From NCBI RefSeq assembly GCF_002150685.1, contig NZ_MSSW01000008.1, positions 1 to 64,000 on the forward strand: 64,000 bases of DNA. Reading direction: 5' to 3'. The position numbers were made by a program, and so were the translations under genes. This document shows, in pieces, positions 62,704 to 64,000 of the stretch. Position 1 is the stretch's first letter; each line of letters begins with the position of its first letter. The notes under the pieces are model-generated. The model was not told the origin of the DNA. It saw only the letters and a list, made by a program, of their open reading frames with translations, and ran no database searches. The DNA comes from Algoriphagus antarcticus. Its GTDB lineage: Bacteria > Bacteroidota > Bacteroidia > Cytophagales > Cyclobacteriaceae.

Positions 62704-63567
62704 TTATTGTTCAGATTTAATATGAATCAAAATCTCCTGATCCAAACCTTTTCTAAGTTTGTGAATAGTGTCAATAAGTGTTAAAAGATTTCCTTCATCG
62801 ATTAAATCCACTTCAAAGTTTATTCTTTGATCATTATATCGTTTTCTATTTCCATAGTCGACAATTAACTTGTCAATATTTTGCGGAATATAAAACGATG
62901 CTTTGTTCCCAAGATGCTTTTTGAACTCATTCAAATAGATGCCAATTCCCGCAAAGTCATAATCACCAAAATGCAAATAACTATTTGGTATGAATTGAAG
63001 CCACTTGATTAAGTCCTTACTTTGGTTTTGAGGGTAACGACTTATAAACAATGGTTTAATGTCAGAGAACAAATACTTCTGATTGTCAATGTGCCGAAAG
63101 TTTTCTGGATTTTCGATTCCTACCAATGTAATGTCTTGTGGTAATATAAATTTTTCAAATTCATAGATGAACTGAAAAGTTCCTACAACTGGGTTGAGTA
63201 TAATTTGATTTCCGTTTAGCGTTGCCTGAATTGGGAAGTAGCAGTTAACCAAAAATCCCTTGAAAGTTCTTACACCAATCAACTTGGATTCGGCTGAAAC
63301 AGCTACGAGTTCGCTACGCGTTACGCCTTCCTTTTTAAATACATCAATGTATCGTTGAAGGCTATTGATTGAATAATTGTTTTGTAAATAAGTGTGTAAT
63401 GCTTTTTTATCAGAAAGCATCAGAGATTTTTGAATTCTTCCTTTTCGTTCGATGATTCCTTCTAGAACTAAATCATCAATCAAAAAATGCTTTGCCGAAC
63501 TTGAAGGAATGCTTTCGCCATGAGATAGACGCAGTAGTTTTTCTGCGATATGAACAGGAACTTTCAT
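62704..63567 (-). CDS. TOPRIM-domain protein, JetD-like (probable defence nuclease)
   Basis: A 287-residue protein. The N-terminal part (about 1-75) looks like a winged helix (VPVHIAEKLLRLSHGESI...LVLEGIIERKGR). The C-terminal part has a TOPRIM arrangement: Glu in GIENPENFRHI (resembling the ENxxNF of JetD/DUF2220) and the DxD in LHFGDYDFAGIGIYL. In Wadjet systems JetD is the DNA-cleaving subunit and is encoded after the SMC-like JetC; the gene here starts on the stop of an SMC-like ATPase gene (TAATG). A Wadjet-like or related SMC-TOPRIM anti-plasmid system is the best reading. Family not confirmed by search. Confidence 0.7.
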   Translation of the reverse strand: MKVPVHIAEKLLRLSHGESIPSSSAKHFLIDDLVLEGIIERKGRIQKSLMLSDKKALHTYLQNNYSINSLQRYIDVFKKEGVTRSELVAVSAESKLIGVRTFKGFLVNCYFPIQATLNGNQIILNPVVGTFQFIYEFEKFILPQDITLVGIENPENFRHIDNQKYLFSDIKPLFISRYPQNQSKDLIKWLQFIPNSYLHFGDYDFAGIGIYLNEFKKHLGNKASFYIPQNIDKLIVDYGNRKRYNDQRINFEVDLIDEGNLLTLIDTIHKLRKGLDQEILIHIKSEQ

Positions 63568-64000
63568 TAGGCTTCGGTCTTAATTACGGACTCAACTGCT
63601 AGAATTTTCCTTACCAGCCGTTTTATGCTTGTTACATTCTTAGCATCCTTGGCTAACAGATATGTGTAACGATAATCGGTTGCGTTATATGAAGTTGGTG
63701 AGCTGTTTATTAATAAAATATTTCTGTCGTTTGCAAACTTCAAAATCCCTTTCACATTATTTGGATGTAGCTTCCCAATTTCATCCATCATACAATGCAA
63801 CCGAAAATTATCTTTATATTTCTTAGCTGCTCTCTCTTTAAAAACATTCAGCAGCATAATATTTATCATTGCTTTTACAAGGACATCTGTTCCCTCTGAA
63901 CCAACATTTGTAAGTTTCTCAACCCATCCCGAATCATTATCATTTTCTACAATTCTAAATTCCAATTCAAAAGAATCTGAAAGATTAATTTCCTTCTCCT
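63567..64000 (-). CDS. SMC/DUF3584-like ATPase, 3' end (5' part beyond window)
   Basis: The frame is open to the window edge; 144 codons are visible. The sequence has the terminal ABC-ATPase features of SMC-like proteins: the TNVGSEGTDVLVKAMINIML signature helix, the hydrophobic strand and Walker B CMMDEIGKLHPNNVKGILKFAN, and a switch-like ILLINSSPTS. This arrangement fits JetC/MukB-like or DUF3584 proteins. It overlaps the TOPRIM gene by one base, so the two are in an operon; any further subunits would lie upstream at higher coordinates, outside the window. Confidence 0.72.
   Translation of the reverse strand, partial: EKEINLSDSFELEFRIVENDNDSGWVEKLTNVGSEGTDVLVKAMINIMLLNVFKERAAKKYKDNFRLHCMMDEIGKLHPNNVKGILKFANDRNILLINSSPTSYNATDYRYTYLLAKDAKNVTSIKRLVRKILAVESVIKTEA

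Follow-up and report, generated by a model that had tools for sequence, protein, structure and literature searches.

A probable divergent Wadjet-like operon with a compact TOPRIM protein in Algoriphagus antarcticus, its jetB gene split by an IS66 element

Gene content and layout of the operon

We analysed a stretch of DNA (the window) that makes up the first 64,000 bases of contig C113 of Algoriphagus antarcticus, which is 175,937 bp long. The right end of the window falls inside a four-gene operon on the minus strand (Table 1). From the letters of the window, the original prediction had described the end of an SMC-like ATPase and a following gene, overlapping it by one base, with an N-terminal winged helix and a TOPRIM site, and had taken the pair as the end of a Wadjet-like or still unnamed SMC-TOPRIM system. 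Both genes were recovered. The open frame of the ATPase contains CMMDEIGK and GSEGTD and, as a fragment, already matches PF12128 (DUF3584, E 5.7e-11) above the curated cut-off of Pfam. The following ORF encodes 287 aa with the motifs IENPENF and GDYDFAG and does share a single base with the ATPase gene.

It had been proposed to extend the sequence past position 64000 and to look there for kleisin- and KITE-like genes, and both were found, namely a 400-aa kleisin-like gene and an MksE gene. Read in the direction of transcription, the contig has an HNH gene, a methyltransferase-HIT gene, the 400-aa jetA, a split MksE/KITE gene (jetB), the 1,235-aa SMC gene (jetC) and the TOPRIM gene (jetD). A co-directional series kleisin-KITE-SMC-TOPRIM is the order JetA-B-C-D, with which this genome agrees, its jetB being split by an IS66 element. 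Thus, with kleisin-like and KITE genes upstream, the pair in the window is the end of a Wadjet-like arrangement, as had been predicted.

Table 1. Features of the operon and its surroundings; positions beyond 64,000 are contig coordinates, which continue the numbering of the window
Feature	Position	Strand	Remarks
jetD-like gene	62704-63567	-	287 aa; winged helix about 1-80 and TOPRIM about 100-287; probable nuclease
jetC-like SMC gene, C-terminal end in the window	63567-64000	-	signature helix, Walker B; frame open 63567-63998
Whole jetC, past the window	63567-67274	-	1,235-aa SMC
jetB/mksE, 3' part	67258-67716	-	PF21980
IS66 element	67717-70043		8-bp target duplication
jetB, 5' part	70044-70165	-	40 codons and 2 nt
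jetA, kleisin-like gene	70174-71376	-	400 aa
Accessory methyltransferase-HIT and HNH genes	71373-73345

The SMC, KITE and kleisin-like proteins

Regarding the ATPase, PF12128 covers residues 19-1194 of the whole protein with an E-value of 1.3e-50, and the PADLOC models of JetC and JetD match weakly; the suggestion that this ATPase is more like DUF3584 than like JetC, and the system therefore a variant, was borne out. The Walker A of the protein is GTQGVGKST. Among 95 full-length SMCs of the family the Walker A pattern is present in 93 (GTQGVGKS in 89), the signature GS[ED]GT in 85, and the Walker B is mostly HCMMDEIG[KRT] (84 proteins: HCMMDEIGK in 59, HCMMDEIGR in 17 and HCMMDEIGT in 8). Heptad periodicity and high charge extend over about residues 200-530 and 590-860, many of the scanned segments not being significant, and such a pattern would fit two arms with a hinge between them. 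The part of the SMC that lies past the window has its Walker A and charged, partly heptad-periodic stretches suggestive of arms.

The KITE fragment matches PF21980 (MksE) with an E-value of 3.8e-36 and 125.3 bits against a cut-off of 27. No Pfam family was found above the cut-off in the 400-aa JetA; many kleisins of the family have 395-399 aa. A homologue of JetA, from locus L045, was modelled from 49 sequences (pLDDT 78.4, pTM 0.41), and its best Foldseek match was JetA 8q72_E, a weak one (E 5.7e-4), with MukF chains coming next. On realignment MukF scored Z 13.1 against a high background of unrelated helical bundles (STAT 12.5, CorA 12.2). A kleisin fold of JetA is supported by the model, although not proved.

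The TOPRIM protein

The 287-aa JetD matches PF23947 (DUF7281) with an E-value of 9.7e-08, above the curated cut-off of Pfam, and no other Pfam family was found in it at E<=1, DUF3322 and JetD_C being absent. A literature search on 'DUF7281' found no paper. The AlphaFold2 model built from 81 sequences (mean pLDDT 89.7, pTM 0.67) has both the N-terminal winged helix and the TOPRIM domain that had been expected of this protein. Residues 1-80 resemble generic winged helices on structure realignment.

The top Foldseek rows for the model were Spo11 and topoisomerase VI-A, with E-values of about 1e-5 to 1e-3. MksG and JetD were not among the 50 best rows and appear only on realignment, which covered the 1000 best Foldseek matches. 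There MksG 8b7f came first (Z 12.1, 155 residues, 3.6 A), tied with topoisomerase VI-A 9o0g (Z 11.5), and JetD 7til had Z 10.9; the rows of other kinds were far lower, at Z 5.9 and below.

Six residues (E152, Y178, D202, D204, Q277, E278) do not vary in any of the 105 JetD sequences. By order and spacing, rather than by a residue-level structural alignment, they could correspond to E236, Y258, D279 and E349/E351, which PMC10123090 gives for MksG. We also considered Y73 as a catalytic tyrosine of the winged helix; it was invariant in the 81 sequences, but it is a tyrosine in only 87 of the 105 (7 gaps, 5 W) and was discarded. Since no tyrosine is invariant in the winged helix across the 105 sequences, hydrolysis can be argued for rather than a topoisomerase-like reaction. 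Sequence and model together make JetD a probable nuclease.

Relatives and distribution

A scan with the TOPRIM alignment found at least 349 genome-contig stretches that encode a relative, and the observation is therefore not due to chance. The best 80 of these at least 349 relatives have 48-74% identity and nearly all are labelled Bacteroidota; the exceptions are single records of Nitrospirae, Desulfuromonadales, Altiarchaeales, Melioribacter and a Bathymodiolus endosymbiont, and these bins may be contaminated. A tblastn search against plasmids (PLSDB) gave 4 records. Of the 72 loci with all four genes, L062, L080, L106 and L112 were set aside because they are incomplete; the 68 complete operons that remain are 64 of the best 80 loci and the 4 plasmid records. 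The order A-B-C-D is kept in 68 of 68. The overlap between jetB and jetC is 17 nt in 57 of these operons, and that between jetC and jetD is 4 nt in 30 and 1 nt in 21. Most of the other twelve of the best 80 loci start right at the end of a contig or close to it; L049, inside a long contig, is without jetA and jetB, and L061 is decayed, as is L062.

Extra genes stand between the jet genes in four loci. We take them to be GxxExxY-like (L046, L059), HicAB-like and GNAT-like (L052) and YhcG-N-like (L069). The best 80 loci gave 131 immediate neighbours, one for each side on which there was one; they are varied and of modest defence content, with raw counts of 5 for RhuM, 3 for Schlafen AlbA and 3 for HIT.

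Regarding the plasmid records, pPP6 of Persicobacter psychrovividus, the only annotated one of the four, carries four adjacent genes of 396, 179, 1,233 and 285 aa, and the two Persicobacter replicons with the operon measure 157 kb and 1.58 Mb. The PLSDB records L041 and L042, of Phocaeicola massiliensis, are near-identical to a 3.1-Mb contig of genome G507 (L042 to L178 and L041 to L182) and, to judge by this identity, these 'plasmid' records may be chromosomal pieces. Carriage of the operon by phages was considered and rejected, no relative having been found in the phage records or viral contigs searched.

The family is rare in an even sample of the phylum. Among the 395 genomes of this sample the TOPRIM search gave 4 matches, which are the window's own genome and three distant ones (G363, G398, G241) in other kinds of operon, so that the family itself was found in 1 of 395 genomes by TOPRIM, and DUF7281 was found in the own genome only. 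Among near relatives the distribution is sporadic: the operon is in 1 of 58 genomes, that of the window, and the TOPRIM gene is absent from 57 of the 57 others (E<=0.001). The family KITE is present in 21 of the 121 genomes of one family (f29).

The island and the interrupted copy of A. antarcticus

The operon lies within a defence island of about 19 kb, from 62,651 to about 81,567 of the contig, which also holds AbiEi/AbiEii, a YhcG-type gene, a helicase matching DpdF, presumably RecQ-like, and a PDC-S04 gene. We take the flanks of the island to be a peptidase-like gene and a YceI-like gene. In the stretches read from the sister genomes G009, G017 and G015 the island genes are absent at that site, and in G017 just 13 bp separate the two flanks. 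A 12-bp direct repeat, GTGATTCCGGTG, stands at both ends of the island, one copy being at the 3' end of the peptidase gene. The G+C content is mostly below that of the left flank, the insertion sequence excepted, and a scan of three stretches gave no tRNA gene.

The HNH and methyltransferase-HIT genes were evaluated as core members of the operon and rejected, because L068 and L079 are the only other loci with the pair next to jetA, directly upstream of it. It also lies near the operon in L089, on the opposite strand, where the likeness of the HNH gene is weak. Perhaps the pair is a separate small defence module.

The IS66 element is 2,327 bp long, with perfect terminal inverted repeats of 13 bp and the direct duplication GAACAAAC, and it interrupts jetB after codon 40, the two jetB flanks being in frame with each other. 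A piece of PF21980 (positions 2-34) is found upstream of the IS66 transposase cluster. The remaining jetB ORF has 157 aa from a TTG start and is without the conserved N-terminal stretch (IFxxLSKGQFIxSNS-like). Of 96 relatives, 59 follow a strict pattern of this stretch, and most of the misses listed differ from it only slightly. Besides one full copy of the element, the assembly holds a piece of 431 bp (97%) and two matches that are short and weaker. A second IS66 transposase gene beside this type of operon was seen in L043, at 944-2419 of a 3.5-kb contig and directly upstream of jetD.

Because the element splits jetB, the copy of A. antarcticus is probably inactive, and plasmid restriction by it is probably off. 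We lean towards the view that the locus in this genome is a decaying, functionless remnant, which is compatible with a Wadjet-like role of the family. Besides the cut in jetB, loci that look damaged or reduced occur elsewhere: the loss of jetA and jetB in L049, the broken L061 and L062, the split jetC of L106 and split jetA of L080, and L043, where no jetC was found on the short contig beside the IS66 gene and jetD. Nevertheless, jetA, jetC and jetD are uninterrupted and of full length in the window genome, and the dN/dS of its operon against L044/L045 is 0.06-0.16, a value that mostly reflects the time before the insertion.

JetABC operons without JetD

Family f29 is taken as Bacteroidaceae, and its genus g68 as Phocaeicola, because the operons of G507 are near-identical to the Phocaeicola massiliensis records. 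We read 23 operons of this family, and the TOPRIM gene adjoins the SMC gene in 20. Three operons (L126, L177 and L179), all of g68, are without JetD. Between L177 and L178 the upstream regions are syntenic and JetA, JetB and JetC are 95-98% identical, yet jetD is only in L178. Furthermore, genome G405 has no TOPRIM of this kind, G542 has only two partial TOPRIM matches on another contig, one of them with a stop, and the one TOPRIM of G486 is from a second operon. A quick tree of the SMC heads (SH-aLRT only) requires two changes: jetD was either lost twice or lost once and regained. Between L126 and L179 the dN/dS was low, with 0.093 for JetA, 0.057 for JetB and 0.109 for JetC, at a dS of 1.6-2.5, near saturation; between L177 and L178 it was 0.01-0.05, which covers the time before the change too.

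A search limited to ScpB gave no match in 6 of the 6 f29 genomes tested, and ScpB was found in the window genome and in 11 of 14 control genomes. G405 and G542 have one MksE-type KITE each, so that there is no second one in two of the three JetD-less cases.

As JetABC persists without JetD in three operons, the SMC core may have another role. A Hi-C study (PMC10197239) gives no known condensin homologue for B. caecimuris and proposes unidentified SMC complexes for Bacteroides. It is a possible reading, though in our opinion a rather doubtful one, that in g68 the Wadjet-like SMC core parted with its nuclease on one occasion or more, probably on two, and was kept for chromosome folding in bacteria that otherwise show no ScpB and, for two of the three, no further MksE; it would then be one of those complexes.

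We consider still less likely the alternative that the SMC core is mainly chromosome-organising (a condensin, MksBEF-like), JetD being optional and plasmid cutting secondary. The three JetD-less operons with their two changes on the quick tree, the dN/dS of 0.06-0.11 between two of them (dS near saturation), the unmatched ScpB in the f29 genomes and the missing second KITE in two of the three JetD-less genomes would fit it. However, JetD is present in 20 of the 23 f29 operons and its site is invariant in all 105 JetD sequences, the distribution among near relatives (1 of 58) is sporadic, the absence of the family KITE from 100 of the 121 f29 genomes speaks against an essential role, and the window genome has ScpB.

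Proposed mechanism and its meaning

With four genes in this order and with these overlaps, motor motifs and a putative nuclease site, an operon of the family probably draws in small circles of DNA and cuts them, as Wadjet does, whose type I is the model from which we take extrusion, size sensing and cleavage. In type I Wadjet, according to a review (PMC10586767), JetABC extrudes DNA and small, fully extruded circles come to JetD for cutting; sharply bent DNA at JetD is described in PMC13040014. By analogy, two JetC SMC dimers, joined by the JetA kleisin and the JetB KITE, would load on DNA, and the loaded complex would extrude it with ATP, in a small circle to completion. The bent leftover DNA would then be handed to a JetD TOPRIM dimer and both strands would be cut, with which small plasmids would be lost. 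In the compact JetD a single winged helix takes the place of the long DUF3322 region of type I.

PADLOC barely recognises this probable plasmid-defence family of at least 349 loci, and therefore the plasmid barriers of Bacteroidota may be under-counted, above all in lineages that often carry it (21 of the 121 genomes of one family have the KITE), the family being rare in the phylum sample (1 of 395 by TOPRIM). Moreover, with the compact JetD as a minimal nuclease one can ask what restrains TOPRIM cutting when the long N-terminal region of type I is missing, and the syntenic L178, with JetD, and L177, without it, offer a natural test of a possible passage from defence SMC to chromosome-folding complexes.

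Comparison with known systems

In the window genome PADLOC gave JetD at E 0.0013 and JetC at E 5.3e-6 over 56 residues, and no Jet model matched JetA or JetB at E<=1. The JetD1 model matches 59 of 81 TOPRIM relatives at E<=1e-3, with a best value of 6.7e-10. By contrast, type I controls of the same phylum reached 1e-148 and 6e-122 for JetD and, in one case, E 0 for JetC; the type I controls L128 and L129 carry DUF3322 and JetD_C. Thus the family does not give the strong match to a JetC or JetD model of Wadjet types I-III, and, with matches so weak against such huge control scores, we regard it as homologous to JetD and JetC but outside the modelled types I-III. The HMM searches that the original prediction had called for, against JetC, JetD and DUF3584, hence ended in a DUF3584 match, weak JetC and JetD matches and no DUF3322 in JetD. 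Profile-profile comparisons with type I JetA, JetB, JetC and JetD gave none that was significant (JetD E 0.0014, JetC E 0.0024, the others weaker). The four family profiles were also run against the PDB sequences, and among the matches listed there was no chain of JetABCD or MksBEFG; apolipoprotein, PsaD, primase and others that were listed look like chance and were set aside.

Our main reading, to which we give a probability of roughly 80%, is that the operon belongs to the Wadjet (JetABCD) / MksBEFG group as a divergent subtype, with a compact JetD of about 285 aa that lacks DUF3322. That it is another ATPase-TOPRIM defence (PARIS AriA/AriB, Gabija, OLD) and no SMC complex is very improbable, since the weak PADLOC match to AriA (E 3.5e-5) and the AriA matches of 2 of 5 SMC members stand against a full-length SMC with long charged arms, conserved kleisin-like and MksE genes in the same operon and a TOPRIM nearest to MksG, topoisomerase VI-A and JetD. 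Regarding Lamassu, which has an LmuB-type SMC with LmuA/LmuC, none of the Lmu sequence models had a match among the four jet proteins at E<=1.

A survey of the Wadjet group from 2025 (PMC7617805) describes a diverse group with several nuclease-less members and uses an MksF filter of 400-1200 aa, and many kleisins of the present family (395-399 aa) would fall just under it. The survey may already list family members. A literature search on 'Wadjet type IV' found no paper.

Five loci of the phylum (L123, L124, L125, L127 and L132) represent further kinds of SMC operon that PADLOC barely recognises. In L123/L124 and in L125, which are small-TOPRIM operons, JetD is profile-related to that of the present family (E 1.4e-8 and 2.4e-7), as are the SMC heads (JetC E 3.2e-14 and 7.3e-11), whereas their SMC ORFs are shorter (887-962 aa) and the order in L125 is SMC-TOPRIM-kleisin-KITE, its kleisin called by size and place. 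The last gene of L127/L132 has a weak JetD_C match in L132 and none in L127, and the SMC of L127 is MukB-like. Regarding the MksE matches in the phylum sample, 44 of the 60 genomes belong to family f36, whose operons L128, L137 and L138 look type I-like by size, as does the JetD of L128 by PADLOC.

Topoisomerase VI A and Spo11 share with the present family the winged helix followed by TOPRIM (Z 9.9-11.5), but the family has no invariant tyrosine in its winged helix. MukBEF and MksBEF are alike in the MksE-type KITE and in that some members of the family are nuclease-less, and the kleisin model resembles MukF; they differ in that here JetD is usually present, its gene overlapping or abutting that of the SMC. 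Compared with type I Wadjet and MksBEFG (C. glutamicum, P. aeruginosa, E. coli), JetD has 287 aa here and 380-403 aa in nine type I-like comparison proteins, type I JetD carries DUF3322/JetD_C whereas the 287-aa protein matches neither, and the SMC is of the DUF3584 type with 1,235 aa against 1,124-1,137 in type I. Nevertheless, these systems have the same order kleisin-KITE-SMC-TOPRIM and, likewise, the MksE Pfam family, a TOPRIM nuclease fold with an acidic site and a winged helix without an invariant tyrosine.
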